IMG/VR virus record: IMGVR_UViG_3300032334_000513
Span: 1-31,351 of that record
DNA from: a virus
DNA length: 31,351 bases
Strand: one strand, 5' to 3'
Shown one piece after another: positions 1 to 24,409 of this stretch (within the stretch, counting starts at the first letter, position 1; every line of letters begins with the position of its first letter). The notes under the pieces were generated by a model, which had not been told where the DNA came from, ran no database searches, and worked only from the letters and a program-made list of their open reading frames with translations. A program made the translations under genes and the position numbers.

Positions 1-3000
1 GACGCAGAGCATTATGCTGCTCTAAATAAAGAAATAGATATCTTTGAGAATTTGACGGCGGTCGAAAAAAGACAGACTGACCACGGGCAAAGGATTTACG
101 CTATACCGGACTGGACAAATATTTTGCCGTCCGAAAAGAAGATATTTTTTGATCAGGTTACAAATATAAATGACCAGATCAAAAGTGATATTGACGCGTC
201 TACCGAACAAAAACTATCAAACCTTGATTGGTTTAAGCTACGAAACATAGGCGAATACAGGAAGGCTGGGCGTGTACTTCAAAAGTACCGCGCAATAAAA
301 ACTGATCGTGCTAAAGGTTACAAAACTTTTACCGACACTCAGAATAAACTTAAACAAGCCAAAAAAGAGGGCGACAAAGCAGCAATTGCTGCGCTTGAAA
401 AAGAACTGAAAACATTAAGAGCAATTGCTGAACTTGAAGATGCTGACGAGAATGAACTTACGATTGCTTATAACTACGAAGAGAACCGTAAGATTGTTAG
501 CAAACTGTTTGGCTTTGAATTTCCTAGCTGGAATAAACTATCAATCGCAGGTAGGGCTAATTTTGTAAGAAATTCATTCGCTGAAAGTGGCGGACTTGAA
601 CAAGATGTAGCCTACTTCAAACTTGCTGAATTTTTACTCAAAGAAAGTAACGTACTACCTAAAGATATTCAAGACAAGCTTATTGCGGCCAAAGAAAAAG
701 GCGATAACAAAGAAATAGCTAAACTCACAAAAGAATTAAAAGAAGCAAGAAATTCTACTGTTTTAAAAATAAAAGCACGGGCTATTACTGCAAAAATAGA
801 GCGGCTAGAGGACGCGCTTAAGCTTTCTGAAGGCAGGAAATCTACTGCTAGAAAAATTAACGATGAAGCGGCACTTGCTCGTGAAGATGAACTTACTGAG
901 CAAATCAAAGATGAGATAAAAGAACTATCCGGTAAAAATAAATTTGAGGTATACGACCGTAAAGCCAACCTTGCGGCTGAAAGCGAAGCCACCAGAAAGT
1001 ATATTGCCGAAATCAATCGGAAGTACACTATTGGCAACAGCGCTGAGAATCCATTCAAGGATATGTATGCAGCATATGCTGCCGTAAATGAACTCCTGAA
1101 CCAAGTTGAAAACACCACCGATCCGGAGGTGCAGTCACGGTTGCGCGCCGAGTTGGTTGAGAAGCAAAAGGTAGCTGACGAAGCCGCAAAACGCTACAAC
1201 GAGATCATCAACAAACCAGCTAACAAAGAAGTAGCCAGAGAACAAATAAACGATCAGATCCAAGCGGCTAAACTTCGCCTGATTGACCATGAACGCCGCA
1301 TGATTAACGCGGCGACTGAACAAGAGAAGGCAGAATATCAGGCGCTGATCGAGCAAGAGAATCAGTTAGTCGAAGGATTTACTGAAGAACTTGCTAATCT
1401 TGGTATGCCGTCCAGAGAGGTCTTTCAATCTCGGTCAAGGTTGCCTGAACATGTAATTAATCAAATCAACGCTAACAATCTACAAGGAGTTTTACAGTAC
1501 CTTCGTACGCAAAAAGGGTCTGTTGATGAAACTGGCAAAAGCGTAAACACTATTACGGCTGCGCTTGGTCAAATTTTGTTTGACATGAAACTGCAAACGC
1601 AGATCAAAATTGTCGAAAGGTTACCAAGCAAAGTAGCAGAAGGTACGGACGCGTTGGGCGCGTACGATCCGATGACGGATACGATCTATCTGACTAAAGC
1701 TGGCTTAGACGACAGCACAATCTTGCATGAGACTGTTCATGCGGCGACGATTCAAGTGCTCTACAAGTACCTTAGTGGCAAAGCGTTCCACAAAGATCTC
1801 ACAGCTACTCAGCTAAAAGCAGCCGCGCATCTCGAAAACATCATGGAGCAAGCCAAGCAGTACCTTGGTGAAAGCTACCCCAACGCTTTTGAGAATCTCT
1901 ACGAATTCGTTTCGTACTCGATGACGGACCGTACGTTCCAAGAAGAACTACTTGACATCAGCTACTCCGCACAAGGCGCTTCGTTCGCCAGTGAAAAAAT
2001 CAAAAAGTTTGAGTCAGAACTACAGAAGAAACTGAAAAACGGTGAAGTTCAACTAGAGCCAGTTGGTAACAGTCAATCGGCTTCTAACTGGGCGTCAAGC
2101 ACAATTATTGAAAGCATACTGAAGAAAAGCCGGTCGCTTTGGTCGGATTTTACTCGGACAATTGCTGACATCATTGGCTACGACCCGAAAGAATTCAACA
2201 AGAATTCCGCTGCGCGGCAGCAAGCCAAGATCCCCAAAGTAGTAACGATTGAGGGCGAAAGGTATCTGCTCAAACAGGGGAAATCAATTGGTGGTCTCCC
2301 TGCCGAAATCAATCTGTTCTTAGAAGTAGCCGAAGCGTTCAATCAGATTTTGACCGTGCCTCGGGGCGGGTTTGACATCAGCCAACTCCAAGCCAACGCG
2401 CCAAATGCCCCAAAACAAGCGCAAAAGAATTTACGTACCAATGTAGATATCTTTGACGACAAATCAAAAGACTACGCTCCTCGGCCAGAACGCGAAGAAA
2501 CAAAAGGCAAAACATTTGTTAGTCGGCTGCTGAGTGTTCCTACGCACTACAAAACCGCAGTTTACAATTTCCAAAACGACCGCGTTGAAGTTAAAACGTG
2601 GCAAGAGATGCTTACCCGTGCTAATAAAATTGTATATGACGTAGTAAATCAACCTGATTTGTACAACGCAATCAGTACAGCAATCACTCTTGCTACTTCT
2701 CTTGGTAAAAATAACCTCATAAGGCACGTAAGACCATTAGCAGATAATTTAAATAAATCGCTGTCTAAGTACGCCAAAGCAGAAGGTATTGACACAGACA
2801 CAGTTCTCAAACGTATCCATAAAATTATGGAGGGTTTGCACGAGCCAGAACGTCGGATGGTTAAATATCTGTTGATCGTACCGTTAAGTAAAGTTGCAAA
2901 TATCCAAGCTGGTACTAATAGGCTTATCAGTGCAGCGGATCTACGGCAAGACATCATTCATTACTTGAATACTCGGGCGTATACAGAGCAAGAACTTGCC

Positions 3001-5694
3001 AACGGACTCGATAAAACAGAAGCCGAAGCACTTCGTGCCAAGTTAGAGAGCATTGTCTTTACGACTGATGCCGCCGGTAATCGTGTGCCTAATCTGACTT
3101 ACGTAGATAAAAAAGGCAGCAGCCCAAGAATATCTGACAAAATGAACCGGTTCCTCAATAGTCGATACGCCCTTGTGGGTGGATGGGCCGGTATGGAAAT
3201 CGATATCAACCATGATACTTATAATGTCACGGGTATGACCCCGGCTGCTTCTGCTGCTGTTCGGGCGCAATATCAGAACATGCCCAATAAGGATCTGATT
3301 GACGACATCCTGAATCAAGTGCAGCAACTGCACAAGGTAACCACGGAGCTTAATAAAGAAGCTAATTATTGGTCGCAGCCGGTTAGCAACCGCGTGTTCT
3401 TCTATGGTTACAAACACTATGTACCACTTAAAGGTACTCTAAAACCGCTAGCGGTAGATACACAGCTAGATTTTGATAGCCTCAACAGGGGTAGAGAACA
3501 CCAAGAATTCCAACCAGAATTCGGTGGGCGTGAGTCTGTCTCAGACAATCCGCTTCAGCAATCAATCATCGATGCGTCCCGCGCCGCCACGCGAGCAGGG
3601 CGTAAGAATGTGACGCTTGCCATTAAAAACGCCATTAACCAAGGTCTGATAAAAGGTGCTCGGTTTAAAGACCCAGTGCCATTTGAGGAACGTGGTGACC
3701 GTGAATGGTTGAACAGTATTCCCAGAGGCAAGTCAATCTTTCACTACAACACGGACGGCAGCATCGAAGTCTTCATCATCGAAGATCCCAAAATGCGCGA
3801 GAGCATTCGTCGCACATACAGGGACACAAGCCCCGTGTGGAAAATTGCTAATGACATCACTAGTGCTATCGGTGCAATACATACGCGATACAACTTTAAT
3901 TTTGCTCCGCTGAACTTCGTTCGTGACGCGTTAACTAACACGTTTGCGATTGGCGCTGACATGGGGCCAAGGGAAGCTGCGGAATTCATAAAACAGATTT
4001 CATCCATAGTTGTTCAGGGCGGTTTGGTAAAGGCAATGCGTGTTGCTGTTTTGCACCAAAGTCTTGACCCAAATAAACGCGCCGAGTACGACAGGTTGGC
4101 AAAATTTGGGGATGCCCATACTCGTGCCATGATTGAATTCTTGAATAAGGGCGGCATGGTGTCGTACACCCAAGCGCTGTCTCTGAAAGAAAACTTCTCT
4201 GAGTTGGAAAAAGAAATCGGCAAAAACCGCATCGTAAGTACCGTGCAGGGTTTGAACAGGTTCCTTGATCTGTGGACGGACATGTTTGAGGTTGCCAGTC
4301 GCTCTGCTGCGTATATGGTTGCTAAGCAAAATGCCGTGAAGGAAGGTCTGTCTAGAGAAGCGGCACAAGAAAAAGCAGCAGACTACGCCAAAAATCTGGC
4401 TAACTTTGAGCAGGTTGGGAAGTACGGCAAAATTTTAGGTTCGCTTTATATGTTCTTCCGTCCATCTGCTACGGGTGCGGTAAGGGCTATCCAATCTGTA
4501 GCTCCTGCTTTTGACATGCGGTCTTGGGATACGATAAAGTTGACGTTGCCTGAAACTATCAGAGATGATCCAGTTGCTTCTGCTACGTACAGAAAGAACT
4601 ACATGAAGCAACAGGCAAATGCCCGGATCATGACCGCCTCGTTGATGGGCGCTGGTATGCTGGCATATACGATGGCGTATATGATGTCTGACGATGACGA
4701 TGACTTGGGCCGCAACCCAGTGTTGACAGACAACATGCAGCAGTGGACCCGCTTTGCGCGATTCCATATTCCCAGATCGATTACGGAAGCGATGGGTCTG
4801 AATAAGCCCGTGGTTATCCAGATACCTTGGGGTTTTGGACTTGGCGCGTTTGCTGCGTCGGGTGCGCAAATAGCATCTGCTATTGCAGGGCAGCAACCAG
4901 TCAAAGAGGCTTTGGCAAACATCTTCCTACAGATTTCGTTGGACTCATTCGTCCCAATTCCGATCTCACGGATGCCACCTACTGAGATGCCACTTGAGTT
5001 CTTCTTGGACTCAATTATGCCTAGCGTAGTACGTCCAGTCCTTGAGTTTGCTCTCAATAAAAATGGTCTTGGACAAGATATCTACAACGATCAAAACCGT
5101 CGTATGGGTGACGCTTACACTGGCGGCGACCGTATTCCTCAGATCTACAAAGATGCGTCTAGATGGGTTGCCAACAGCAGCATAGGTTCGTTTATTGGCA
5201 TACAAGACGTAAGCCCTAACACCTTGTACTTCCTGTCCAATAGTTACGCGGACGGTGCGGCTCGTATGTTTATAGAGCTTCCTTCTGCCATCTACAACAT
5301 GTCAAGCGACCGAAAAACATTCGATCCCAAAACAGATCTACCGCTTTTTGGTTCTTTCTTCGGTTCAAAGTCAAACGTAGACTCCCGCGAGTTCAGCAAA
5401 GTTGAAAGTCAGATTCTTGATATGAAAGAAAAAATCAAGATGTTTGATACTAGCCCGCTGATGGCTGCGCGTTACGATATGGCGTATCCATTTAATCGGG
5501 CGTTAGTAGAAATGTACGACAAGGATGTTAACGGCGAGTTGCGAGATCTGCGAGCGGAAGCCAAAAGAATTCGTTTAGATGAAAATATGAGTCCTAAAAC
5601 CCAAGAGTCTTTACTTAAAGTGATGACCTACCATCAAAACTTGATCAAACATAATTTGATCATGTCTTACAGAGCCTACGGGGTCGAACCCTAA
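1..5694 (+). CDS. Giant virion-associated protein with zinc-protease motif (5' end missing)
   Basis: The reading frame is open from base 1 without a stop, so the gene begins upstream; the TTG at 52 is only the first start-like codon. At least 1,897 codons are visible. The first ~480 residues are charged, coiled-coil-rich and contain a duplicated segment (nt 343-423 and 673-753) with pattern KL..AK..GD...IA.L.KELK..R. Near codon 576 lies HETVH in a hydrophobic context, matching the HExxH motif of zinc metallopeptidases. The C-terminal third (NFAPLNFVRD, then LGSLYMFFRPSATGAVR, then a membrane-like stretch ending in DDDDD) resembles the LPD38-type domain of large polyvalent phage proteins. Such proteins are usually virion components ejected into the host; that role is inferred. 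The gene ends in a 4-nt overlap with a convergent minus-strand gene. Confidence 0.85.
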   Translation, partial: DAEHYAALNKEIDIFENLTAVEKRQTDHGQRIYAIPDWTNILPSEKKIFFDQVTNINDQIKSDIDASTEQKLSNLDWFKLRNIGEYRKAGRVLQKYRAIKTDRAKGYKTFTDTQNKLKQAKKEGDKAAIAALEKELKTLRAIAELEDADENELTIAYNYEENRKIVSKLFGFEFPSWNKLSIAGRANFVRNSFAESGGLEQDVAYFKLAEFLLKESNVLPKDIQDKLIAAKEKGDNKEIAKLTKELKEARNSTVLKIKARAITAKIERLEDALKLSEGRKSTARKINDEAALAREDELTEQIKDEIKELSGKNKFEVYDRKANLAAESEATRKYIAEINRKYTIGNSAENPFKDMYAAYAAVNELLNQVENTTDPEVQSRLRAELVEKQKVADEAAKRYNEIINKPANKEVAREQINDQIQAAKLRLIDHERRMINAATEQEKAEYQALIEQENQLVEGFTEELANLGMPSREVFQSRSRLPEHVINQINANNLQGVLQYLRTQKGSVDETGKSVNTITAALGQILFDMKLQTQIKIVERLPSKVAEGTDALGAYDPMTDTIYLTKAGLDDSTILHETVHAATIQVLYKYLSGKAFHKDLTATQLKAAAHLENIMEQAKQYLGESYPNAFENLYEFVSYSMTDRTFQEELLDISYSAQGASFASEKIKKFESELQKKLKNGEVQLEPVGNSQSASNWASSTIIESILKKSRSLWSDFTRTIADIIGYDPKEFNKNSAARQQAKIPKVVTIEGERYLLKQGKSIGGLPAEINLFLEVAEAFNQILTVPRGGFDISQLQANAPNAPKQAQKNLRTNVDIFDDKSKDYAPRPEREETKGKTFVSRLLSVPTHYKTAVYNFQNDRVEVKTWQEMLTRANKIVYDVVNQPDLYNAISTAITLATSLGKNNLIRHVRPLADNLNKSLSKYAKAEGIDTDTVLKRIHKIMEGLHEPERRMVKYLLIVPLSKVANIQAGTNRLISAADLRQDIIHYLNTRAYTEQELANGLDKTEAEALRAKLESIVFTTDAAGNRVPNLTYVDKKGSSPRISDKMNRFLNSRYALVGGWAGMEIDINHDTYNVTGMTPAASAAVRAQYQNMPNKDLIDDILNQVQQLHKVTTELNKEANYWSQPVSNRVFFYGYKHYVPLKGTLKPLAVDTQLDFDSLNRGREHQEFQPEFGGRESVSDNPLQQSIIDASRAATRAGRKNVTLAIKNAINQGLIKGARFKDPVPFEERGDREWLNSIPRGKSIFHYNTDGSIEVFIIEDPKMRESIRRTYRDTSPVWKIANDITSAIGAIHTRYNFNFAPLNFVRDALTNTFAIGADMGPREAAEFIKQISSIVVQGGLVKAMRVAVLHQSLDPNKRAEYDRLAKFGDAHTRAMIEFLNKGGMVSYTQALSLKENFSELEKEIGKNRIVSTVQGLNRFLDLWTDMFEVASRSAAYMVAKQNAVKEGLSREAAQEKAADYAKNLANFEQVGKYGKILGSLYMFFRPSATGAVRAIQSVAPAFDMRSWDTIKLTLPETIRDDPVASATYRKNYMKQQANARIMTASLMGAGMLAYTMAYMMSDDDDDLGRNPVLTDNMQQWTRFARFHIPRSITEAMGLNKPVVIQIPWGFGLGAFAASGAQIASAIAGQQPVKEALANIFLQISLDSFVPIPISRMPPTEMPLEFFLDSIMPSVVRPVLEFALNKNGLGQDIYNDQNRRMGDAYTGGDRIPQIYKDASRWVANSSIGSFIGIQDVSPNTLYFLSNSYADGAARMFIELPSAIYNMSSDRKTFDPKTDLPLFGSFFGSKSNVDSREFSKVESQILDMKEKIKMFDTSPLMAARYDMAYPFNRALVEMYDKDVNGELRDLRAEAKRIRLDENMSPKTQESLLKVMTYHQNLIKHNLIMSYRAYGVEP

Positions 5695-5897
5695 CCTGTA
5701 CGCCAAGCACGGACACCCATGTGTCCGTCCTTGCTTGATGGGTATATCTTGAACCGCATCCCTTCTTTTTTGGCAGCGGTATCTATGGCGTATATCATTT
5801 GAGATACACGCAGGGTGGGGATAAAGAAACTATCCCCAACTCTCATCCCCATGAAAGGGAACACCCACTCAGGTTCCTTGATCAGATCCGGTGTCAA
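5691..5897 (-). CDS. Small conserved phage protein, 68 aa, TTG start
   Basis: The product contains the pattern VGDSFFIP, a basic GMRFKIY segment and a C-terminal GVRAWR. I associate this layout with small phage proteins found next to replication genes, but I know no function. No ATG is available in frame. The TTG at 5897 is supported by GGAGG six bases upstream, which lies inside the end of the primase gene, so translation is probably coupled to it (29-nt overlap). The 3' end overlaps the stop of the convergent giant gene by 4 nt. An 8-bp hairpin (5709-5728, loop CCAT) lies inside its coding sequence. Confidence 0.7.
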   Translation of the reverse strand: MTPDLIKEPEWVFPFMGMRVGDSFFIPTLRVSQMIYAIDTAAKKEGMRFKIYPSSKDGHMGVRAWRTG

Positions 5898-8703
5898 TCC
5901 ATTCCTCCGGTATTTGGGTCTTGAACCAGTATAGGTGAGTCGGATCTACGCTAATTGAAGTCTTCCAACCCGTAGTCAGACGACCCTTCTTGTTGTCGAT
6001 CAGGATGTTTTGAGCCGCCATCTCAAACTCAAACTCACGTGAACTAATCTGCCGCTCGTTGAGATACTTCTTGAAGTCAGTCTTGGAGACCTGCAAAAGA
6101 CTCTGCTCGCTGACTATGCGCCCAACAATAGCGCCTCGCGGTTCCATCGTCACCTTGCCGTCCTTGATGACTAGGATGTTGCCCATGTTCTTGTTGACGT
6201 AATCGCCAATCACAGACGGGTAATCAGTGCGGTTGATCTTGACCACGTTGTCACGGATCTCAATCATCGAACGAATGACCTCGTGGTAGATACGGTCAAG
6301 GTCTAGTTTAAAAATATTTGCATTGTTGCCAATCGTACCAGCGGTAAAAACTGCCGCCACAATATTTTGATAGAAACGATATGTTGAGCTATCGCCAAAG
6401 TTCTTGAGAAACCGAGCGTTCCACCTGCTGATCTCGTCGATGATCCACGCGTCGCCCAACTTAAATAGTTCTTTGATGAACATTGGACCGGCGTGTCCGT
6501 AGTTGTACGTGAAGGTATCAAAGATCTTCGCACCCAAAGCAGCGCCCCCGGCACCCTCAAGTACATCAGGTTTGTGGACTAGAAACTCAATAAGGCGCGC
6601 AGCCTCTCCGTCAGGGTTTGCTTTGAACTGCTCAAACTTGCTGTAGATCGATTGGTTGGTAGTGAAGATAGCAATCAGCGATGCCGACATTTCGTGCTCA
6701 CGCTCAGCATTGATTGAACTCTGCATCCTGATCTTCGCCTTGCCGTGGGAGATCTTATGCACCAACTGCGACGTTGGTTTGGCTTCGCGGTTCGACACCT
6801 CGTCCAATCCGAACGGCAAATTCTTCAACCCAAGGTATCGTCCGGTCAGTCCGTTCTCCGTAGCATCGAACACAGATAGCTCTTTAGGGTTCCCAAAAGC
6901 ACTCAATCCTGCGTACATTGCACCGGTCTTACCACACCCCGACTTACCTAAAAGGCACGTTACGACACCGGAAGTTGACGTATAAGGCATCAAAACTGTA
7001 CCGAAACCAGCCAAACCAGCGAATGCGTGGAGTTCAAATTGAGGTCGGTTCAACTCGTCAAACGAACTGCGCCACCGCTCATACGTGCCTTGAGGTTTAA
7101 GATATTTAGCAATTCCTTTGACGAAAGGTGATGAAGGTGCGTCCAAAGTTTCTCCGTTGTAGTTGATCTCTTTGTTGCCGATGACGAAGCTGCGCGTTGC
7201 CCAGTTTTCGCCTGTGATTTCCTCTGTCCATCCCATCTGCATACGCATAGTTTCCGCCACAGTGTTTGTCTGCATGTATTGACCCCACTTCACAACGTAG
7301 TCCATTAAAAGTTTAGTGTTGAGCGTTGAGGCAAGTACGCCGTTGTACGCCATCATTGCTTTGAAAGTCTCCTGCGCGTAGACATGCTTTAACGGCAAAA
7401 GAAACTCCCGCATAGAGTCGCGGGGTAGTACCAACCTCATGAGCAGACACTCGCCATCGTGGGGACTCATCATCCTTCTAATGGGGAAGAACTCGTGAGG
7501 TAGGATCAGGATCGGGTCGTCCTGATGTTTAATGCCCTTCTTATCTACGGTGGGTGCTGGCAGGAAGTAGATCCCTCCGTTATGCCCACGCACAAATGGC
7601 ATCAGGAATTCGGGAAACTCTGGAATAGTTTTGGTATCCGGTTGCGCCCAAACTGGTTCCTCCGTATTGGGCGGCGGGGCAACTCTGAGTTCTCGTCCAA
7701 GGAGGATGGGGCTTGCAATCTTGCCTCTGTGCTGACATCCATCACATCCACTAGGGTAGTTACTGATGAACCACTCGCATTTTCGAGGGGCAGGAATAGG
7801 TTCAACTTTTTGTTCTGTTTTATGGTAGTCATACTCCGGGTGATCTTCCGACATCAAATGAATAGCAGTCGCGCCATCTTCACAAAACTTGGCTACGGAT
7901 AGGCCAGCGAACCACAGTGGCTCCGGTATTGTGGCGGCGTTCACCAGAATATTTTTTATCTGATTACAACCTGTACCCTCAATACTTATTGCCGCTATTT
8001 TGTTGAAGCTCTTCGTAAAGTTGTCCAACTTCAGCATCTGAAGAGTGTCGTCATCCAGACCCTTCGACGCTACTTCAAGAACAGGCGCTTCGATCTTTAA
8101 CGGTTCTTCACCGAAGAACTCTTTGAACTCCTGCCAACTGTAGACCGGGAATTCCTCAGTGATGAACGATGCGAGCCGTGGTGGGTTGTATTTATAGTTG
8201 AAAGTCTCTGGCGCTCGTAGTAGCCGGGAAGCATCTGCCGTGACCACGGGGTCGATAGTGATGTGCTCCATGCAGAGGGTTCTAAATCTCTCTGCAAAAA
8301 CCCTCCATTCATCGACCGGAATGTCTTGATCCATCAGCCAGTAAGCGTGTAGCCCACCACCTGAATCGACAACCACTGGATCGGGTAAACCCGTAGCACC
8401 TATCAGTTTAAATAGTGCTACATGAGCGTCGCCTTTATCTGTGTAGGACTTGTTGTCACCTACATCAATATCGATAAAGAATGATCTAACGTATAAACAG
8501 TCAGCAGCCTTTCTGCTGTATCCGTCAAAGGAGCCTAGGGCTACTGAGACATTTCGATTATTACTCTTAAACTTTTCAATTTCTTCCAGAACACCGTCGA
8601 GTGTCTCTGCGTATCGGTTCTTGATGCTTCCGTGTATATCAAAACCGCTGACACAATAGACACCCTGCGTGGGCAATGCTTTCTCGTAAAATTGTTTTAA
8701 CAT
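5869..8703 (-). CDS. Primase-helicase (AEP-type primase fused to ATPase)
   Basis: A 944-aa replication protein predicted to make primers and unwind DNA at the fork. Residues 1-200 carry motifs of the archaeo-eukaryotic primase superfamily: DID at 78-80 (metal-binding acidic pair), SGGGLH at 114-119, and D157-A-S-R near the third motif. A Cys/His cluster (C309, C320, C323, H325) suggests a small zinc site. The C-terminal half has a Walker A GKSGCGKT at 586-593 and Walker B FGLDEV at 631-636, as in DUF927-like or superfamily 3-type helicase ATPases of phages. The ATG at 8703 has only a weak SD and lies 14 nt after a strong intrinsic terminator, so expression may depend on readthrough or an unseen promoter. 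Confidence 0.85.
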   Translation of the reverse strand: MLKQFYEKALPTQGVYCVSGFDIHGSIKNRYAETLDGVLEEIEKFKSNNRNVSVALGSFDGYSRKAADCLYVRSFFIDIDVGDNKSYTDKGDAHVALFKLIGATGLPDPVVVDSGGGLHAYWLMDQDIPVDEWRVFAERFRTLCMEHITIDPVVTADASRLLRAPETFNYKYNPPRLASFITEEFPVYSWQEFKEFFGEEPLKIEAPVLEVASKGLDDDTLQMLKLDNFTKSFNKIAAISIEGTGCNQIKNILVNAATIPEPLWFAGLSVAKFCEDGATAIHLMSEDHPEYDYHKTEQKVEPIPAPRKCEWFISNYPSGCDGCQHRGKIASPILLGRELRVAPPPNTEEPVWAQPDTKTIPEFPEFLMPFVRGHNGGIYFLPAPTVDKKGIKHQDDPILILPHEFFPIRRMMSPHDGECLLMRLVLPRDSMREFLLPLKHVYAQETFKAMMAYNGVLASTLNTKLLMDYVVKWGQYMQTNTVAETMRMQMGWTEEITGENWATRSFVIGNKEINYNGETLDAPSSPFVKGIAKYLKPQGTYERWRSSFDELNRPQFELHAFAGLAGFGTVLMPYTSTSGVVTCLLGKSGCGKTGAMYAGLSAFGNPKELSVFDATENGLTGRYLGLKNLPFGLDEVSNREAKPTSQLVHKISHGKAKIRMQSSINAEREHEMSASLIAIFTTNQSIYSKFEQFKANPDGEAARLIEFLVHKPDVLEGAGGAALGAKIFDTFTYNYGHAGPMFIKELFKLGDAWIIDEISRWNARFLKNFGDSSTYRFYQNIVAAVFTAGTIGNNANIFKLDLDRIYHEVIRSMIEIRDNVVKINRTDYPSVIGDYVNKNMGNILVIKDGKVTMEPRGAIVGRIVSEQSLLQVSKTDFKKYLNERQISSREFEFEMAAQNILIDNKKGRLTTGWKTSISVDPTHLYWFKTQIPEEWIDTGSDQGT

Positions 8704-9946: not shown

Positions 9947-10345
9947 CTAATTGGAGGGTTTGCGGACTACGATGCCGAATTCCCTCATTACATTCACACC
10001 GGGAGGCAAGCCATCTTGCTCATGCTCGGCCATGAATTGCTTGAAGTTGCCCTGATGGATGCGGCGTTCCAACAGATCAACCGCGTCGTTTTCCATGACG
10101 AACTTCTTGAAATTATCCCAGTCGTTCGTCGTGAAACGCTCATTAAGTTTCCTGATCACTGTGCCGCTTCCAGTACGGATGCTGCTCGCGTTGGTGTCAT
10201 TGCAGATGACCAGCATCTCTTTCTCGATAGCCAGCATATCGTCCAAAAACACCTTGTCGTCGGCTTCGTACTGAGCCTTCAGTGTCTCACGTTCGGTTCT
10301 AATAGTCAAGTAGGCTTTGACTAATTCTTCAAGATTCCTGTCCAA
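9947..10345 (-). CDS. Conserved phage replication-module protein, 132 aa
   Basis: A mostly helical protein: an N-terminal coiled coil (residues 1-45), then SIRTGSGTVIRK, then a C-terminal part with DLLERRIHQGNFKQFMAEH and PPGVNV. I recognise this pattern as a widespread small phage family located between helicase and ssDNA-binding-like genes; its biochemical role is not known to me. The start is TTG at 10345, chosen because AAGGAG lies at good spacing upstream and no in-frame ATG exists before residue 37. It overlaps the end of the helicase gene by 17 nt, so the two are co-translated. Confidence 0.7.
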   Translation of the reverse strand: MDRNLEELVKAYLTIRTERETLKAQYEADDKVFLDDMLAIEKEMLVICNDTNASSIRTGSGTVIRKLNERFTTNDWDNFKKFVMENDAVDLLERRIHQGNFKQFMAEHEQDGLPPGVNVMREFGIVVRKPSN

Positions 10346-11711
10346 TTCCTAACTCCTTTTTGTACAGATCCACAAGTTTCTCGTGGGATGACACTTTGCC
10401 CTCCAGCATCTCGTAGACACGCCGCTCAGCCTCTGAGCCTTGCAGATGAACCACGGTCATACTGTTCTGTTGACCTACGCGGTCGATACGGGCGATACAT
10501 TGTAGATACGTTTCTACAGATGTGACGGGAGACCAAAACACCACAGTGTCAGCGGCAGTAAGCGTGACGCCATGTGATGCGGCTTGCGGTTGAATGACTA
10601 ACACCCTAGGATCGGGCGTTGACTGAAAACGGGTGATGATGTCTGCTCGTTCCCGTGGGGATACACTTCCGTTAATTACTTCACTGATGACTCCTTGAGT
10701 ATTAAGAAAACGCGAAACCAAATCGATGGTATGAGTGTATGGGACGAACACCAACACCTTGTTGTCGGTCTCGTCTAACACCTCCATCAGCGCGTTGAGT
10801 CTTGGGCTAATATCAAACTCAACGACATCGCCCTCATCGGTGTACACTGCACCGCCTGAGATCTGCAACAACTTGCTCATTTTCGCCGCCGCATTGACTG
10901 CGGTAATCTGCTCACCTGCCGCTTCGATCAACATCTGGTCTTTGAGACCCTTGTAGTACTTGTTGACCTGCGGTGTCAGAGGTACATGTCTTGTCTGATA
11001 CATCACTGACGGCAGGTCCAGACAGTCTGCCTTTTTGAAGCGTATGGCTGGCTGAAGTGCTGAGAAGACGTTCTTCTGAGCATCAACCTTCGGAACCCAT
11101 TTGAACTGCGTGATTTGTGTCATTACCCTATCGCGCCACGCCGTGAAGTACTGCGGCACATATTGAGGAGAAACTAACTTTGCTAACCCGTAAGCATCAA
11201 GAGGTGATTGAGAAGCTGGCGTTCCTGTCAGCATCCATAGTTTTGTGGACGGTCGTAACACTTTCTTTAGGGTTTTCCAACGCTTGGTAGAAACAGTCTT
11301 GTACGCGTTGGCTTCGTCGATGACTATCAGGTCAAACCCTGAGTTGTAGATCTCGTTGGCTACGATGTTCACGCCGTCGTAATTGATCACAACAAACTCG
11401 TAGCTTCCCTGAATAATCTTCTTACGCTTCTCAGGTGTGCCGTAGGCAACCGCAACGCTTCTGTGCATAGCCGTCTTGAAGATGTCGGCTTGCCATGCGG
11501 TGATCATGATCGAAAGTGGGCAAATGATGAGAACGCGGTTGACCTGTTTCTTATTCATCAGGTAGTCAGCCGCCCAGATGACGGATGATGTCTTACCTGT
11601 ACCTGCTTCATTGAAGCAAAAGGCCCGATCAGTTGTAGCTAAGAACTCAGCCGTTGTTTTCTGGTGTTTGAACGGGGTGTATAATCCCGGCCAATTATAT
11701 TCATTTACCAT
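10329..11711 (-). CDS. SNF2-family (superfamily 2) DNA helicase/translocase
   Basis: A 460-aa ATP-dependent DNA translocase. Visible motifs: Walker A NEAGTGKT (34-41), IDEAN (131-135, motif II), LTGTP (161-165, motif III) and QCIARIDRVGQQ (404-415, motif VI with arginine fingers). This is the compact SNF2-like form common in phages, without chromatin-related extensions. I start at the ATG at 11711, preceded by GTGAG at proper spacing; a GTG four codons upstream (11723) lacks an SD. It heads a four-gene operon (helicase, 132-aa protein, zinc protein, HTH protein). A likely role is replication-fork or recombination-intermediate processing. Confidence 0.88.
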   Translation of the reverse strand: MVNEYNWPGLYTPFKHQKTTAEFLATTDRAFCFNEAGTGKTSSVIWAADYLMNKKQVNRVLIICPLSIMITAWQADIFKTAMHRSVAVAYGTPEKRKKIIQGSYEFVVINYDGVNIVANEIYNSGFDLIVIDEANAYKTVSTKRWKTLKKVLRPSTKLWMLTGTPASQSPLDAYGLAKLVSPQYVPQYFTAWRDRVMTQITQFKWVPKVDAQKNVFSALQPAIRFKKADCLDLPSVMYQTRHVPLTPQVNKYYKGLKDQMLIEAAGEQITAVNAAAKMSKLLQISGGAVYTDEGDVVEFDISPRLNALMEVLDETDNKVLVFVPYTHTIDLVSRFLNTQGVISEVINGSVSPRERADIITRFQSTPDPRVLVIQPQAASHGVTLTAADTVVFWSPVTSVETYLQCIARIDRVGQQNSMTVVHLQGSEAERRVYEMLEGKVSSHEKLVDLYKKELGIGQES

Positions 11712-11737
11712 ACTAGATCTCACTAAATAACTAGAGG

Positions 11738-16233: not shown

Positions 16234-16266
16234 AAAAAAGGGGGTACGTCAGAGACGTATCCCCCC
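16234..16266 (-). terminator. Intrinsic terminator after DUF3310 gene
   Basis: On the minus strand: GGGGG, bulged A, TACGTC, loop TCT, GACGTA, CCCCC, then TTTTTT. This 11-bp stem with U-tract ends the long operon begun at 22081. The polymerase gene starts only 24 nt further. Confidence 0.85.
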
Positions 16267-16273
16267 GCGCGTA

Positions 16274-16819
16274 TTACTGTTGTGCAGGAATACCTAAACG
16301 CTGTGCCTCTTCAGCGGACTGATCGGCATATTCTTCACAAGCCTTGTCGAGCGCACGGCGAAGATACCACTGCGCCTTCTGCAAGTCTTTGATTTTATCC
16401 CCCTTGTGCTCCGCACGGGTGATGTACTTCACCACGTTACCTAAGTTGTAATCCAGACCCTTCGCCTCGATAAAGTCGATGGTCTCTATCCCTCCAGCCG
16501 TGTAGTGCGGTGGGTGATTAACTGAGTCTGCGCGTAAAAACGATGGGACCGTGTATGTCGGGATAGTCATAGTTTTCGTCTCACCTTGAGGTGGAAGAGT
16601 AACCGTAGTAATTGTGATTGGAGGAGCGTCCCCTGCAACCATATTATCTGCCGCTACTCCGATGTCAGCCTTCGGGATGAGCGCCCGCGCCTTACTACGT
16701 AAGATATACGCATAAGCCCTGCTATTGACTTTCATCTTCTTGGTGAAATCATCCACCGACATGAACGGATCTTTCGTGAGCAGTTTAACTGCGCGATTAA
16801 GAGTACTTGCTTTAGCCAC
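16274..16819 (-). CDS. DUF3310 protein with N-terminal helix-turn-helix-like region
   Basis: The C-terminal half contains VNHPPHYTAGGIETIDFIEA, then LGNVVKYITRA and DLQKAQWYLRRALD, the signature of DUF3310, a phage family sometimes called nucleotide-kinase-like but without proven activity. Residues ~1-50 (MSVDDFTKKMKVNSRAYAYI) look like a small helix-turn-helix. A Thr/Pro-rich linker joins the two. The start is GTG at 16819, preceded by AAGGGGA. It is the last gene of the operon, one base after the stop of its neighbour and directly before a terminator. Confidence 0.8.
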   Translation of the reverse strand: MAKASTLNRAVKLLTKDPFMSVDDFTKKMKVNSRAYAYILRSKARALIPKADIGVAADNMVAGDAPPITITTVTLPPQGETKTMTIPTYTVPSFLRADSVNHPPHYTAGGIETIDFIEAKGLDYNLGNVVKYITRAEHKGDKIKDLQKAQWYLRRALDKACEEYADQSAEEAQRLGIPAQQ

Positions 16820-16820
16820 T

Positions 16821-17006
16821 TTATTCCCCTTCTGGAATGGGCGATTTAACGGAAACGATACCTTTGCCGGTACGTTCTACTAACATGGAATCTGCGATCT
16901 CAAATGAAACTCTGGCTATTTGGTCTCGGTAGACACTTTTCGTTATCAGACCGAGCATAGCCAACCCCGCATATAGATCTCGCAGAGACTCCAATTCTTT
17001 ATCCAT
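16821..17006 (-). CDS. Unknown small helical protein, 61 aa
   Basis: A helical protein with LYAGLAMLGLITK and SFEIADSMLVERTGK. The latter resembles the terminal AD.ML helix of the small protein at 12617-12883. The ATG at 17006 overlaps the VRR-NUC gene end by 8 nt. No function recognised. Confidence 0.55.
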   Translation of the reverse strand: MDKELESLRDLYAGLAMLGLITKSVYRDQIARVSFEIADSMLVERTGKGIVSVKSPIPEGE

Positions 17007-17307
17007 GACGCAACTCCTTCAACTGTTTAATTAACTCAACAAGATACTGTAAATCTGACGCATTCTCGTTGATGACTGCGGTGTAGCCCCCGCCCAACTC
17101 AATATCTTTCAGATTCTTCTTTTGCAACGCGGTGGGTTTACCTCCGTTTGCTTTCGCTTCGATCCCTAAGAATCGTCCATTAACACAACACAAGAAATCA
17201 GGTACGCCTGAGTTCCCCCACCCTGTACCTATTGGCATCGCATAATAAACTCCTTCCTCTTTTAAAACGGCTTTTATATTTGCCTTAACTTTTGCTTCCG
17301 GTGTCAC
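16999..17307 (-). CDS. VRR-NUC domain nuclease, 102 aa
   Basis: Minimal PD-(D/E)XK nuclease of the VRR-NUC type. GVPDFLCCVNGRFLGIEAKA gives D37 and E50-A-K52, followed by ALQ (Q62). Stand-alone VRR-NUC proteins of phages are thought to cut branched DNA such as Holliday junctions; this activity is inferred from the family. The start is GTG at 17307 with GGAGG upstream. It overlaps both neighbours, within the AAA+/VWA operon. Confidence 0.85.
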   Translation of the reverse strand: MTPEAKVKANIKAVLKEEGVYYAMPIGTGWGNSGVPDFLCCVNGRFLGIEAKANGGKPTALQKKNLKDIELGGGYTAVINENASDLQYLVELIKQLKELRHG

Positions 17308-17683
17308 CTTTCATTTCCTCCAAGTCTTTCTTTGGTATCACTAAACAGAAATACGAATCCGACGATTGCCAACCAATGTCGTGTAGTTCTACAGGTCCAT
17401 GATTGACATACAGTTCAGCCTTGAGAAGTTCTACGTCCCTGACAACATACTGATTGCTTGCAAGAATCATAGCCAATCTCATCTTAATCAAGTCTGGCAG
17501 CGTCTCGTCCGTATACGTTCGTGTGTAATTGTCACCCACATGAACCGTGTAAATTCCTTCCTCACGGTGCAATGGAACCCTAATTAACGCCCAATCGTTT
17601 TGATGCACGACTGGGCTAAGATGTACAAATCTTACTGACATGGTGAAGTCTTTCACAACCACCCAACCGGAATCATCATCCAT
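17285..17683 (-). CDS. Unknown protein, 132 aa
   Basis: No recognised domain. Mixed alpha/beta composition with a beta-rich C-terminus (ELYVNHGPVELHDIGW, YFCLVIPKKDLEEM). The ATG at 17683 has a distant GGAG and creates a 31-nt overlap with the upstream gene; the internal ATG at 17641 (MSVRFVHLS) would avoid the overlap but has no good SD. Its position suggests a role in the same operon as the MoxR/VWA pair. Confidence 0.55.
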   Translation of the reverse strand: MDDDSGWVVVKDFTMSVRFVHLSPVVHQNDWALIRVPLHREEGIYTVHVGDNYTRTYTDETLPDLIKMRLAMILASNQYVVRDVELLKAELYVNHGPVELHDIGWQSSDSYFCLVIPKKDLEEMKGDTGSKS

Positions 17684-18609
17684 TGTTCGTGATACTCCGA
17701 GATACTTGTTGGATAGTAAAGAGCAACATCTAAGTCAGCGTTGTACATGTCAGCCCTTGGTATAAATGGTGTGACCATACTATGTCCAGTCCCCTCGTAA
17801 GCAACCTTCGACATAGTTAAGATCGGAACCAAGTCCGTAAATTCTCTGTAGAGAGTTTCTTGGGAGACACGACGGAATGATTGCACGATCTCGTTCTGGT
17901 GCGGGTCGCTACCGTTTTTGGTTCGCTTGACCTTACCCACCATACAATGCCCACGCTTGTCTGCCGCGAGAAGATAGAACGGATTCTCAAACATCCTCGT
18001 GATCTCTTTGTTCCTCTCAACCAGATTAGAATCGATCTCGTTGTATTTGTCAAGTGCTGTTTGACATTTACTTCTGTCTACAAACAACGGCGCTCCGTTC
18101 AAGATAACTTTCAGCATCTGATGAATTTCGTCGCCAGTGAACGGCTCTAGAGATTTATAAGTTTTACCGAAGTGACTTTCTGCTTGGTTCTTCAGCCCGT
18201 CCACCGCTCGCCTGAGTTTGTGGACCGCCAGATCGGGCTTGATCGCATTGCTTTTTTTCAGCGCACCCATCAGCGAAGATAGTTTGTGGCTAGTCCAAGT
18301 CTGACGATGAATCTCAGTCTTGCCACGGTCTTTAGATGCAAACGGTGTGAAGTACGCGTAGTGGGTTTTCGCGTCCTCCTCCCATGCGTACACGTGACCT
18401 TGCGCGAACCCATTCTTCTCGACCAAATGAAAACTATTGCAGTTACCTTCTGCGCCTACTGTATGGTAGGCATATTTGTGATCCAACACCATCAGACCAT
18501 AGTGATGATTCAACTCACGGATGAGCGGTAACACCATTGTGTCGTTGGTGAGTGCGGTGATGAGTGAGTCCGTGGCGAACTCACCGTAGATTAATTTCTG
18601 TACAGACAT
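17653..18609 (-). CDS. Unknown protein of the MoxR/VWA operon, 318 aa
   Basis: No domain recognised. The N-terminal 120 residues are rich in aromatic and His residues (MVLDHKYAYHTVGAEGNCNSFH; YAYFTPFASKDRGKTE), the middle is helical (LRRAVDGLKNQAESHFGKTY), and the C-terminus is beta-like. The ATG at 18609 is preceded by GAGGAGTATTTGAAA, nearly identical to the leader of the MoxR gene at 21125 (GAGGAGTATTTAAA). It starts 13 nt after the VWA gene, so it is a plausible fourth partner or substrate of the ATPase system. Confidence 0.65.
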   Translation of the reverse strand: MSVQKLIYGEFATDSLITALTNDTMVLPLIRELNHHYGLMVLDHKYAYHTVGAEGNCNSFHLVEKNGFAQGHVYAWEEDAKTHYAYFTPFASKDRGKTEIHRQTWTSHKLSSLMGALKKSNAIKPDLAVHKLRRAVDGLKNQAESHFGKTYKSLEPFTGDEIHQMLKVILNGAPLFVDRSKCQTALDKYNEIDSNLVERNKEITRMFENPFYLLAADKRGHCMVGKVKRTKNGSDPHQNEIVQSFRRVSQETLYREFTDLVPILTMSKVAYEGTGHSMVTPFIPRADMYNADLDVALYYPTSISEYHEQWMMIPVGWL

Positions 18610-18622
18610 TTTCAAATACTCC

Positions 18623-19912
18623 TCAGTCGTTGTTGATCATTACTTTCTTGCCCACGGGAGGGTGGAACGATGTATTCTCGGTCACCATCCAGAGAGTTGG
18701 CGGGATGACATCCCACAGGAACGAAGACTCCACGTACCCGTCAGTGAAGACAATCACACAGTCTGCGTTGATTCTTTCTTTGACGATGTGATCACTAACG
18801 CAGCCAACACGAGTACCCCCACCACCTACAGGTTTGAGCATCTTCGCCAGCCCCATGTAGTTGCCCTCAAAGATCTGCTCGCCATGCACGTGCGTGTCCC
18901 ACCACAGAACACGAACCTTTTCTGGTTCACACAAGTCACAGATAGATGCCAGTTCTGTTGCGAACCCCGTAAGAATGTCACCGCTGATAGATCCCGACGT
19001 ATCGATGGCGACCACCACCTCGCCGACAGTCTCGTTCTCGATGCTCGGCAGATACAGATCATTGACCAACTGACGCTTGTTCAGCCGACGCCAAGTGAAC
19101 TCATCCTTGCCACGGATCGATGACGACACTACATCGCGCAACGCATCTTTCCAATCTACCTTTGGCGTAAGAAGATCACTGATGGCACGAGGCATCTTGC
19201 CGCCCATCCGTCCAGCTAACATTCCACCCTCACGTAGAGCTTTATCTATTGCTTCGCCCATCTTCTTGATGTCTTCCGGGTCCATGCCTTCGATCAACTT
19301 CTCAAAGTCATGCTCATCGAACCCACCGTCTGGGATCTCTTTGAGTTCATTACCATTGATGACAATCTTCCCTGACCCCGAACCTTGATCATCAGCAGGC
19401 TCATCGCCTGAGCCACCGCACGGCTTATCTCCCTTTCCACCCTCACGTGGAGGTGGAGGAGGATTCTGTTTCTTCAAATGATCCCAGATCTGACGCATAG
19501 ACCAGTCGTGAAACATCGAGTCATACAACGCCCCGTCAGGTAGCTCGACGATACGCTCGGGTGTATTACCAATGGTTCCGGTAATGTTGTAAATGATGTC
19601 GTTGACCACAAAGTCTGCTGCCATGTTCGCCAGCTTTGCGTTCTCCTTGAAGAAGTCCAGATGACGCGGCAACTGCTTGAGCGCAACGTGCAGGTTCTCG
19701 TGCAAGATCAGACCGCGACGCTTGGGACCGCTCGTAATCTTCTCTAAGAATTGACGACAATACTTCTTATTGACGCCATCGGTGTAAGCCGTGAAGTTGC
19801 CATCTTCCACGGCGCTCTCTCCCATCAGCATGACACCTGCGTACAGGGCAGTTTGTGGGTGCTTCATCAGCGCGATGTGCGCTTGCTTCAACAAAGTTTC
19901 TTGACTAGACAT
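18623..19912 (-). CDS. VWA-domain putative metallopeptidase (DUF2201-like)
   Basis: A 429-aa two-domain protein. The N-terminal domain has HENLH at 71-75 (HExxH zinc motif) followed by D100 and N104 in ADFVVNDIIYN, as in the putative metallopeptidase part of DUF2201-type proteins. A Pro/Gly-rich and acidic linker (151-180) follows. The C-terminal VWA domain carries a complete MIDAS: DTSGS at 304-308, GGGGT ending at T367, and FTDG with D391. In RavA-ViaA, CbbQ-CbbO and CobS-CobT pairs, the VWA protein is the partner that a MoxR ATPase remodels. Here it follows the ATPase gene after a 100-bp hairpin-rich gap. Confidence 0.85.
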   Translation of the reverse strand: MSSQETLLKQAHIALMKHPQTALYAGVMLMGESAVEDGNFTAYTDGVNKKYCRQFLEKITSGPKRRGLILHENLHVALKQLPRHLDFFKENAKLANMAADFVVNDIIYNITGTIGNTPERIVELPDGALYDSMFHDWSMRQIWDHLKKQNPPPPPREGGKGDKPCGGSGDEPADDQGSGSGKIVINGNELKEIPDGGFDEHDFEKLIEGMDPEDIKKMGEAIDKALREGGMLAGRMGGKMPRAISDLLTPKVDWKDALRDVVSSSIRGKDEFTWRRLNKRQLVNDLYLPSIENETVGEVVVAIDTSGSISGDILTGFATELASICDLCEPEKVRVLWWDTHVHGEQIFEGNYMGLAKMLKPVGGGGTRVGCVSDHIVKERINADCVIVFTDGYVESSFLWDVIPPTLWMVTENTSFHPPVGKKVMINND

Positions 19913-19939
19913 ACTATCCTCTACTTGATTAATTAACTT

Positions 19940-19955
19940 TCCACCTGACGGTGGA
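19940..19955. other. Leader hairpin of the VWA gene
   Basis: Perfect 6-bp stem TCCACC/GGTGGA with a 4-nt loop, 28 nt before the VWA start codon. Similar TCCAC/GTGGA hairpins with 4-nt loops occur in the leaders at 22095-22108 and 24277-24292. The rest of this 100-bp gap (19956-20012) contains further CGGGA/TCCCG inverted repeats without a T-run. Confidence 0.45.
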
Positions 19956-20012
19956 CACTAACACTCGGGATTCCCGACCGGGAAATAACCGGGAACCCCG
20001 ATCCCGAACCAC

Positions 20013-21125
20013 TCACAGAAGCTCGTGGTTGTTCTTCGCCCACTCACCGATCTTCGCGTTGTTACGTGCGAGTTTGATTGCTCGTGGGCTACGCATCATC
20101 ATGGTGAAGAACACCGCTTGAACCTCGGACGAACGAATACGCTCCACGAACTCCATGAATGAAGAGAGTTCATCCTGAGACGCAAGCGTATCGACTGCTT
20201 GGAACATCATCATCAACTGTGCCGCGATGTCATCGGGGACCGGGACACCTTTAGGATCTTTGATAACGTCCTTCACATCTATGAGATTCTTCTCCATGTC
20301 CAAGAACACCATCATGTCCTTGGCAGCAGCCAGACCGATAGTCCCGGCCATTGTTGCTTGCACGAAGTTGGATCTCAACTTATCACGCTTACGCACGATC
20401 ACATCGTTCTTGGCAAGCGAACGTGGCGACACAAACGACAACACCCCATTCCCCGGCTTGAAGATGTAGGGATTATCTTTTGTGTGATCTCCTTCTCTGT
20501 ACGACTGCAAGCACTTCGGGTACATAGAAACCCACGCCCTCGTGACACGAGAGATACCGTTGGCGCTCGCCCATGTCAACCAATCGTTTACACTTGGTTT
20601 GCTCAACTCCACGATACACACACGATTACCTGCATGGGCGAGCATCGTGTCACCGACACCATCTGACGAATTGTTGGATGTTGCAATAATCCACGACCCA
20701 TCAGTCAGCGCCTTGTCACCGACCATGCGCTCCAACAACATACGGGTGAAGATCACCTGCAAGAGCTTCGGCGCTTTGTTCAGCTCGTCGAGCATGATCA
20801 CCTTCGGACGCGGGTCGCTCAGGTTGAACAACGACGCCACGTAGTAGACAAGCTCTTTGGTGACATGATCAGGTATTGTCATACCGATGTCGCTCATGTC
20901 CTTGACCGGACAATCTACGTAGATATAGTCCCTACTGTCGTCAGGGAAATACTGCCCCGGCTTGCGCCACTTGTCACCGTTGTCTTCAGCGAGCATACCC
21001 AAGAGCGAACTCTTGCCACATCCGGGTTCGGATAAGACAACAACAGACAACTCTTCACCAATCAGGGGGATGCCCTGACGCAGTTCATCGATGCTGACAA
21101 CTGGACGGAAATTAAGTGCTGACAT
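20013..21125 (-). CDS. MoxR-type AAA+ ATPase
   Basis: A 370-aa AAA+ ATPase of the MoxR/CobS class. Walker A EPGCGKSS is at 33-40, Walker B VIMLDELNKA at 109-118, sensor 1 ATSNN at 148-152, and an arginine-finger-like NR at 167-168. MoxR ATPases act as hexameric remodelling machines with a VWA partner; such a partner is encoded directly downstream. The ATG at 21125 follows GAGGAGTATTTAAA. The upstream neighbour is the DUF3150-like gene, completing a three-gene set seen in other phages and bacteria. Its substrate in phage infection is unknown. Confidence 0.87.
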   Translation of the reverse strand: MSALNFRPVVSIDELRQGIPLIGEELSVVVLSEPGCGKSSLLGMLAEDNGDKWRKPGQYFPDDSRDYIYVDCPVKDMSDIGMTIPDHVTKELVYYVASLFNLSDPRPKVIMLDELNKAPKLLQVIFTRMLLERMVGDKALTDGSWIIATSNNSSDGVGDTMLAHAGNRVCIVELSKPSVNDWLTWASANGISRVTRAWVSMYPKCLQSYREGDHTKDNPYIFKPGNGVLSFVSPRSLAKNDVIVRKRDKLRSNFVQATMAGTIGLAAAKDMMVFLDMEKNLIDVKDVIKDPKGVPVPDDIAAQLMMMFQAVDTLASQDELSSFMEFVERIRSSEVQAVFFTMMMRSPRAIKLARNNAKIGEWAKNNHELL

Positions 21126-21166
21126 TTTAAATACTCCTCAATGGTAGGGTGGACTGATAAATAAAC

Positions 21167-22081
21167 TCAAACACACTGAAACGAACCAAACTTGCCGAGG
21201 ATGTCGTCAACATCCCCCTTCACCTGCGAGCGCACCGCGTCAGAGTCACGGATCGTATCCGCAGATACTCCCTTGATCGCATCTTCAAGTGCGGCTCGAG
21301 CTGCTTCCAACTCTGCGTTACCCGTAAGATTAAAATCCCTGAAGGTCTCGCACATCTCACGCGCTTTCTCAAGCGTGGACTCATAGATCTTGCGCTTGCG
21401 CGTCTTGACCTCACCGTTCTTACCCGTGACCTCCTCCGTGTCACAACAGTAAGAAATGCTCTTCATGACCTCGATGAAGCGATCCTGCTGATCTTGAAGA
21501 ATGCCTTGGACGATCTCTTCGGTCTGCTTGCTATATGTCACAAACAAATCATCAGCGATGTCTTGGGCAATTTGACACCTAAAGTCGTTTAGAGGTACGT
21601 CGCTCACAAACAAACGCATGTTGAACTTGCCCCGCACTATCTCCTTTGGTGGATAGTCATTACGATTGAACATGTCGCCCAGACCTGACTGCGTGAACGC
21701 CATAGCCGTTACGATGTTGTCGTACTCCGCTACAAACGATTCCACGTGTCCATCGAAAGCTATCTTATGAGCGTCATACTCCTGCTTGAACCGCTCAAGC
21801 TCTACTTGCGGCAAGTATTGGTTGCCCTTGTTCCACATGTAGGTGCGACGCTGAAGCCAGTTATAAACGGTCTGCCGATAGTTGGAGATCGCCTTGTGCT
21901 TGGGATGATCGGCCAGCAAGTGCTGCGTGTAGCGCCCTGCGGCAGCAGAGGCATTCTTAGATGAAGTCACCTCGTCCGACACCGCTTTGTTCTGCTTGGT
22001 CGCAGACCAGACGTTGACATCGACGCTGACCAAAAGGCCAGACGTTGCGAGGCTGATGAGATGCTTTGGCTTTGCAAACAT
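21167..22081 (-). CDS. DUF3150-like protein, first gene of the MoxR/VWA operon
   Basis: A 304-aa mostly helical protein. The N-terminal region (LLVSVDVNVWSATKQNKAVSDEV) resembles the start of DUF3150 proteins, which I associate with neighbouring MoxR and VWA genes; this assignment is from memory. The middle has a long coiled-coil-like stretch. The ATG at 22081 is chosen because AAGGA lies seven bases upstream; the frame extends 29 codons further up but passes through the promoter. A CCACG/CGTGG hairpin lies in its leader (22095-22108). Confidence 0.65.
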   Translation of the reverse strand: MFAKPKHLISLATSGLLVSVDVNVWSATKQNKAVSDEVTSSKNASAAAGRYTQHLLADHPKHKAISNYRQTVYNWLQRRTYMWNKGNQYLPQVELERFKQEYDAHKIAFDGHVESFVAEYDNIVTAMAFTQSGLGDMFNRNDYPPKEIVRGKFNMRLFVSDVPLNDFRCQIAQDIADDLFVTYSKQTEEIVQGILQDQQDRFIEVMKSISYCCDTEEVTGKNGEVKTRKRKIYESTLEKAREMCETFRDFNLTGNAELEAARAALEDAIKGVSADTIRDSDAVRSQVKGDVDDILGKFGSFQCV

Positions 22082-22162: not shown

Positions 22163-22222
22163 TGCCAATTCACATTATAGCACAACTTGACATATACACA
22201 CAGGGTTTGAGGTAACTTTTTT
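22163..22222 (-). promoter_or_regulatory. Extended -10 promoter P1 for the MoxR/VWA operon
   Basis: On the minus strand TGCTATAAT gives a perfect -10 (22174-22179) with the extended TGn element (22180-22182). The -35 region at 17-nt spacing is poor (TGTGTG). An A-tract lies further upstream. The whole region is near-duplicated at 24347-24409, with 26 identical bases around the -10. The predicted transcript starts near 22167 and has a leader of about 85 nt to the ATG at 22081. Confidence 0.75.
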
Positions 22223-24346: not shown

Positions 24347-24409
24347 TGCCAATTCACATTATAGCACAACTTTACTTATAACCACAGGCTTCGGGGTATC
24401 TTTTTTTCG
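24347..24409 (-). promoter_or_regulatory. Extended -10 promoter P2 for the small-gene operon
   Basis: Near copy of P1: TGCTATAAT with -10 at 24358-24363, identical to P1 over 24347-24372. The upstream part is similar (CCTGTG, TATA, then TACC and an A-tract). The leader to the ATG at 24255 is about 95 nt. Confidence 0.75.

Follow-up and report, generated by a model that had tools for sequence, protein, structure and literature searches.

What purpose is served by the neighbouring genes for a MoxR-type AAA+ ATPase and a von Willebrand factor A (VWA) protein, which form a core pair in hundreds of phages (N4 gp24/gp25 and their kin), are functionally unexplained, and are annotated either as HNH endonucleases or as genes for vitamin B12? 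This question is raised by an operon in the IMG/VR virus record IMGVR_UViG_3300032334_000513, of which positions 1 to 31,351, the whole stretch of 31,351 nucleotides, were analysed and are referred to here as the window. A preliminary description of this DNA had read the operon as a single machine, composed of a DUF3150-like protein (gene A), the ATPase and a VWA protein with a metallopeptidase motif, that works on a host or phage complex, with the following proteins of 318 and 132 amino acids (C318 and D132) as possible partners or substrates. All genes of the operon lie on the - strand where they had been placed (Table 1), and our results support a remodeller of MoxR and VWA to which a DUF3150-like protein belongs as the third part, while C318 and D132, always next to it in this phage clade, are no more than putative partners. 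The reading we favour, with slightly less than even confidence, is that the three proteins could form an ATP-driven remodeller, perhaps also a protease, of the element's own replication and recombination complexes.

In regard to the ATPase, the Walker A (SEPGCGKS), Walker B (VIMLDE) and sensor 1 (SNN) motifs are intact, as previously described, although the first glycine of Walker A is replaced by serine; the form SEPGxGK[ST] is found in nearly all members of the clade, and a sensor-2-like SPR motif is also present. Since the Pfam AAA score of 15.9 bits is under the cut-off, the protein is assigned to the MoxR family by transitivity, through its motifs, its match to phrog_1297 (ATPase, 1.8e-47) and the profiles of annotated phage proteins (LIT1 gp24, 3.5e-16; MinM2 MoxR, 2e-14). 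Family-level similarity, both Walker motifs, both sensors and the adjacent VWA gene agree with this placement. The VWA protein exceeds the Pfam cut-offs for the DUF2201_N metallopeptidase domain (2.4e-21, 77 bits, cut-off 23.2) and for the DUF2201 VWA-like domain (3.8e-15, 56.6 bits, cut-off 26.4), and it matches phrog_1314 at 6.2e-74. The complete metal ion-dependent adhesion site (MIDAS; DTSGS, GGGGT, TDG) and the HExxH motif that had been read from the window are both present, the latter as HENLH at residues 71-75 within the N-terminal metallopeptidase domain, in keeping with the DUF2201 metallopeptidase-VWA family. Of 132 phage VWA proteins, 130 have kept the motif, the exceptions being one truncated protein and one from the jumbo phage Atu_ph07 with HQILH, and by this conserved HExxH the protein is a putative zinc metallopeptidase. 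The motif suggests that energy-driven, controlled proteolysis may play a part in the DNA handling of mobile elements. A search of solved structures by sequence with both proteins returned nothing useful. The metallopeptidase-VWA family (phrog_1314 and many phage records) is widely labelled HNH endonuclease, which is apparently a propagated error.

The product of gene A itself gave no match in Pfam. Its relatives match PF11348 (DUF3150) at 2.2e-5 to 0.05, the best at 18.0-18.7 bits with a curated cut-off of 24.9, and by the Pfam rule they fall outside the family. The gene A profile was aligned with a profile of plasmid DUF3150 proteins over 177 columns (E 1.1e-4, against 0.13-0.28 for unrelated controls), beginning at a common N-terminal motif (LVSVDVNVWSA and VIHVDFDIWSG, respectively), and a distant homologue in the Synechococcus phage MinM2 is annotated as DUF3150. 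Judged from these alignments, the proposal of a DUF3150-like first gene holds in the sense of a distant relative. The start at 22081, giving 304 amino acids, agrees with the relatives, while an upstream TTG start disagrees.

Genes for MoxR, DUF3150 and VWA were neighbours on all seven plasmids examined, with HExxH in each of the seven VWA proteins; on six of the seven, genes of the Bet/RecT, exonuclease, SSB or primase type are close to the trio. On the IncC plasmid pSN254, whose DUF3150 protein scores 305 bits, the order is AAA ATPase, an unknown gene, ssb, bet, exonuclease, DUF3150 and VWA. On six further plasmids, with DUF3150 proteins 26-31% identical to that of pSN254, the three genes are directly adjacent or interrupted by a single small gene, and on that of Shewanella baltica in the order DUF3150-MoxR-VWA, identical to the phage. 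Genes for Bet or RecT, a lambda-type exonuclease, topoisomerase or toprim were found nearby on five of these six; on pCAR1.3, helicase and 3'-5' exonuclease genes lie a few kb upstream of the trio. When the pSN254 DUF3150 protein was searched against phages, the sole record returned, at 100%, was labelled Salmonella enterica. ORF101/103 (open reading frames, ORFs) of pCAR1 were noted as MoxR/VWA in 2009, with conservation in R478, Rts1, SXT and R391 (PMC2642839). In the literature searched, DUF3150 was not named anywhere, and no description was found of MoxR-DUF3150-VWA(HExxH) as a three-part unit across element types. The link that DUF3150 makes with the recombination genes of IncC-type plasmids would suggest a concrete common role and correct a widespread annotation.

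The surroundings of the phage operon point in the same direction. Two relatives of about 64 kb carry the stretch from gene A to the primase as one uninterrupted block on a single strand; TerL, the portal, a giant ORF and other genes recognised as coding for the virion occupy the opposite one. The VWA gene lies less than 4 kb from a family A DNA polymerase in five phages (LIT1, At2, 1.169.O, TM29 and that of the window). It is because of this replication-strand location, together with the plasmid trio beside recombination genes, that a role in the DNA handling of the element is proposed. The preliminary description had taken its hint of such a role from the VRR-NUC and DUF3310 genes; the link to DNA is supported on other grounds, while these two genes, with the looser histories described below, are weak evidence for it.

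The same two lines of evidence make an assembly function fit poorly. Iyer et al. 2021 (PMC7824862), who recognised the pair of MoxR and a metallopeptidase-fused vWA protein in jumbo phages, proposed virion assembly, citing the report that p618/p892 of the archaeal virus ATV take part in tail development (Scheele 2011, as cited in PMC7824862), and roseophages encode some mid-phase virion proteins near gp24/gp25 (PMC4193335). A chaperone or protease that folds and processes structural proteins would nevertheless be expected neither on the strand opposite to TerL and the portal nor on conjugative plasmids, which form no virions, and the N4 homologues of the pair are middle genes (PMC4193335). We consider such a function unlikely.

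In the remodeller of replication and recombination complexes that we favour, the core would consist of the MoxR-type ATPase, the zinc-metallopeptidase-like VWA co-chaperone and the mostly helical DUF3150-like protein, presumably in one complex. Most likely, the ATPase ring would work with the VWA protein, whose MIDAS would grip the target, and the DUF3150-like protein would aid in choosing or binding it. The target could then be remodelled and, probably, cut by the HExxH domain, with the element's own replication and recombination complexes as the best-supported place of action; C318 and D132 could be adaptors or substrates specific for the clade. Several observations weigh against this reading. 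Gene neighbourhood is indirect evidence, and in phiCB2047-B and inoa about 20 kb separate the VWA gene from the DNA polymerase. No RecT-family annealing protein was found in the genomes G000-G002. Plasmid and phage VWA profiles align with a probability of 4% over a short zincin stretch and are only distantly related. Finally, the predicted structure of the gene A product is moderately confident (predicted local distance difference test, pLDDT, 75; predicted template modelling score, pTM, 0.50), and its model gave nothing significant against PDB.

It is also possible, although improbable, that the machine serves host takeover or counter-defence by inactivating or dismantling a protein with which the host attacks incoming DNA. 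Phages and conjugative plasmids share the trio and both face host defences, and on some plasmids it is found near transfer genes. The phage operon, however, holds a conserved core position and does not belong to a variable accessory island, and PADLOC gave no meaningful match. The VMAP/iSTAND domain of MoxR-vWA ternary conflict systems was not found in Pfam, NCBIfam or PADLOC searches, libraries that may not model VMAP.

Phage homologues have often been annotated as CobS/CobT (PMC8651126, PMC11705849, PMC11288001), from which the genes would be auxiliary metabolic genes raising cobalamin synthesis. The window proteins fall outside the cobaltochelatase families, with no match to the CobS model in NCBIfam or to the CobT model in Pfam, and the VWA protein is of the DUF2201 type. 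Even the plasmid ATPase reaches only 105 bits with the CobS model, whose cut-off is 558. Cobalamin synthesis also fits poorly with the trio on plasmids and with the location on the replication strand, and it leaves DUF3150 and the recombination context unexplained. The metabolic reading was rejected on family models and gene context, and we regard it as very improbable.

Whether the machine extends to the genes that follow was approached through a set of loci, obtained by scanning viral contigs with VWA, C318, D132, B320 and gene A as queries and calling genes with profile hidden Markov models. In most relatives, VWA and C318 are separated by a gene of the B320 family, whose proteins have 313-356 amino acids and a KPYRGS motif (e.g., L014, 5725-6753); the window and its nearest kin lack it. 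The order A-MoxR-VWA-(B320)-C318-D132-VRR-DUF3310 is kept in nearly all loci, the deviations being contig ends or missing or weak detection of D132 or B320, and its part up to D132 is present in every locus of sufficient length. VWA was found in 34/34 loci fetched with D132 that had at least 4.5 kb upstream and in 58/58 fetched with B320 that had 1.5 kb upstream, while 41/41 fetched with gene A and having 8 kb downstream contained MoxR, VWA and C318. The conservation of C318 and D132 beside MoxR/VWA, on which their proposed partnership had been made to depend, therefore exists within this phage clade.

Even so, C318 and D132 could be unrelated core genes that are adjacent by chance, with only MoxR-VWA(-DUF3150) forming a system, a possibility to which we give somewhat less than an even chance. 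No homologue of C318, D132, VRR or DUF3310 was found in the vicinity of MoxR/VWA when eight other phages were examined (MinM2, LIT1, inoa, At2, TM29, 1.169.O, Atu_ph07 and phiCB2047-B). Pairwise distance correlations among A, MoxR, VWA, B320, C318 and D132 are 0.82-0.93, and those of polA with the same proteins are 0.85-0.90. Because polA shares their inheritance equally, distance correlation was rejected as proof of the partnership. Opposed to chance adjacency are the overlapping genes (D132 shares 31 nt with C318 and 23 nt with the VRR gene), the fact that the two were never apart in the loci seen, and the constant position of C318 despite fast divergence (mean identity about 33%). Pfam gave no match for C318, D132 or B320, and no relationship was detected between B320 and C318 or of either with gene A. 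The predicted structure of C318 is confident (pLDDT 87); its model gave no match in PDB and matched an unnamed viral protein in BFVD at E 7.7e-14. For VRR and DUF3310, located between D132 and polA, the correlations fall to 0.53-0.72; short proteins give noisier distances, yet the short D132 still correlates at 0.82-0.91. As judged from these distances, the block from A to D132 is a vertically inherited core, as is the DNA polymerase, while VRR and DUF3310 have looser histories and are exchanged more freely.

Another variable component was observed in the gap between MoxR and VWA. Among gaps of at least 80 nt, 76 of 87 contain a small ORF for a single-helix, membrane-like peptide (e.g., MLTRWEKFERVALLMSLIVLLLDLFYWRP; gaps in L016, 4236-4334, L247 and L229), compared with 53 of 435 shuffled gaps. 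Such a peptide is encoded here in most other clades. The window gap has no peptide gene, and in its clade two RNA hairpins stand in place of it (z -2.3). Rfam gave no meaningful match. The other phages that were checked had nothing of the kind next to MoxR/VWA. The peptide could possibly be a membrane anchor of the machine. Taken further, and more doubtfully than for the function itself, MoxR, metallopeptidase-VWA and DUF3150 could be one ancient mobile-element machine, common to phages and conjugative plasmids, that would remodel or clip replication and recombination complexes, with B320, C318 and D132 as clade adaptors and often a small membrane peptide.

We know of neither a DUF2201-type metallopeptidase-VWA protein nor a DUF3150 partner in RavA-ViaA, CbbQ-CbbO or CobS-CobT. 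What these systems share with the window is a MoxR ATPase with a VWA partner (PMC10585395, PMC4660213). N4-like, Vequinta and jumbo phages were already known to carry the MoxR/metallopeptidase-VWA pair. N4 gp24/gp25 (Schitoviridae), core genes given no function or described only as ATPase and vWFA (PMC4193335, PMC7650795, PMC2784036), correspond to the window in homology, order and metallopeptidase-VWA architecture, with a DNA polymerase near in LIT1, but no homologues of the DUF3150-like protein, C318 or D132 were detected nearby, and the window phage belongs to a separate lineage of about 64 kb. Group 2.2 jumbo phages have the same two-protein architecture, while the account of Iyer et al. 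2021 (PMC7824862) includes no third gene. IncC, IncP-7 and related conjugative plasmids, as well as SXT/R391, share the three neighbouring genes, HExxH with VWA, and the DNA-metabolism neighbours, and differ in a longer, CobT-like VWA protein, a CobS/CbbQ-like ATPase, very distant sequences and a mostly MoxR-DUF3150-VWA order. New here are the coupling of the pair to DUF3150 in phages as well as conjugative plasmids, its setting among genes of DNA metabolism, and the extra genes specific to the clade.

Table 1. Operon genes and boundary elements in window coordinates.
Feature	Position	Strand	Basis
Candidate extended -10 promoter element upstream of gene A, TGTGCTATAAT	22174..22183	-	without -35
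Gene A (304 aa), helical and DUF3150-like, putative third subunit or adaptor	21167..22081	-	PF11348 matches of relatives and profile alignment
MoxR-type AAA+ ATPase, 370 aa	20013..21125	-	phrog_1297, profile matches, motifs
MoxR-VWA intergenic region, two RNA hairpins	19913..20012	-	fold -32.3 kcal/mol, z -2.3
Metallopeptidase-VWA protein, 429 aa	18623..19912	-	DUF2201_N and DUF2201, phrog_1314, HExxH
C318, 318 aa, function unassigned	17653..18609	-	conserved position, confident model
D132, 132 aa, function unassigned	17285..17683	-	VWA upstream in 34/34 D132-fetched loci of sufficient upstream length
VRR-NUC-like nuclease gene, 102 aa	16999..17307	-	phrog_93, 3.5e-14
DUF3310 gene	16274..16819	-	PF11753, 1.5e-20
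Rho-independent terminator, operon end	16234..16266	-	strong GC hairpin and T tail; terminator scan -16259..16245

Transcription from one promoter to one terminator had also been suggested. The terminator was confirmed by its strong hairpin and T tail, while a promoter ahead of gene A is only plausible: the GTGCTATAAT pattern was matched at 22174-22183 and again at 24358-24367, and motif counts in promoter scans were not above those of shuffles. The VRR-NUC assignment combines weak VRR_NUC matches of relatives with the PHROG endonuclease match, and an ORF of 61 amino acids is located on the - strand between this gene and DUF3310.

As for the rest of the window, a giant ORF at 1-5694 (+), open at the window edge, gave no PHROG match; in the genome G001 it encodes 2490 amino acids, and it adjoins the virion genes. 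No integrase was found in G000-G002. A single 7.6-kb contig of a metagenome-assembled genome labelled actinobacterium gives a hint of the host that is too little for a host call. Positions 5869-8703 (-) encode a DUF927/primase-helicase-like protein of 944 amino acids, and a SNF2-type helicase is encoded at 10329-11723.

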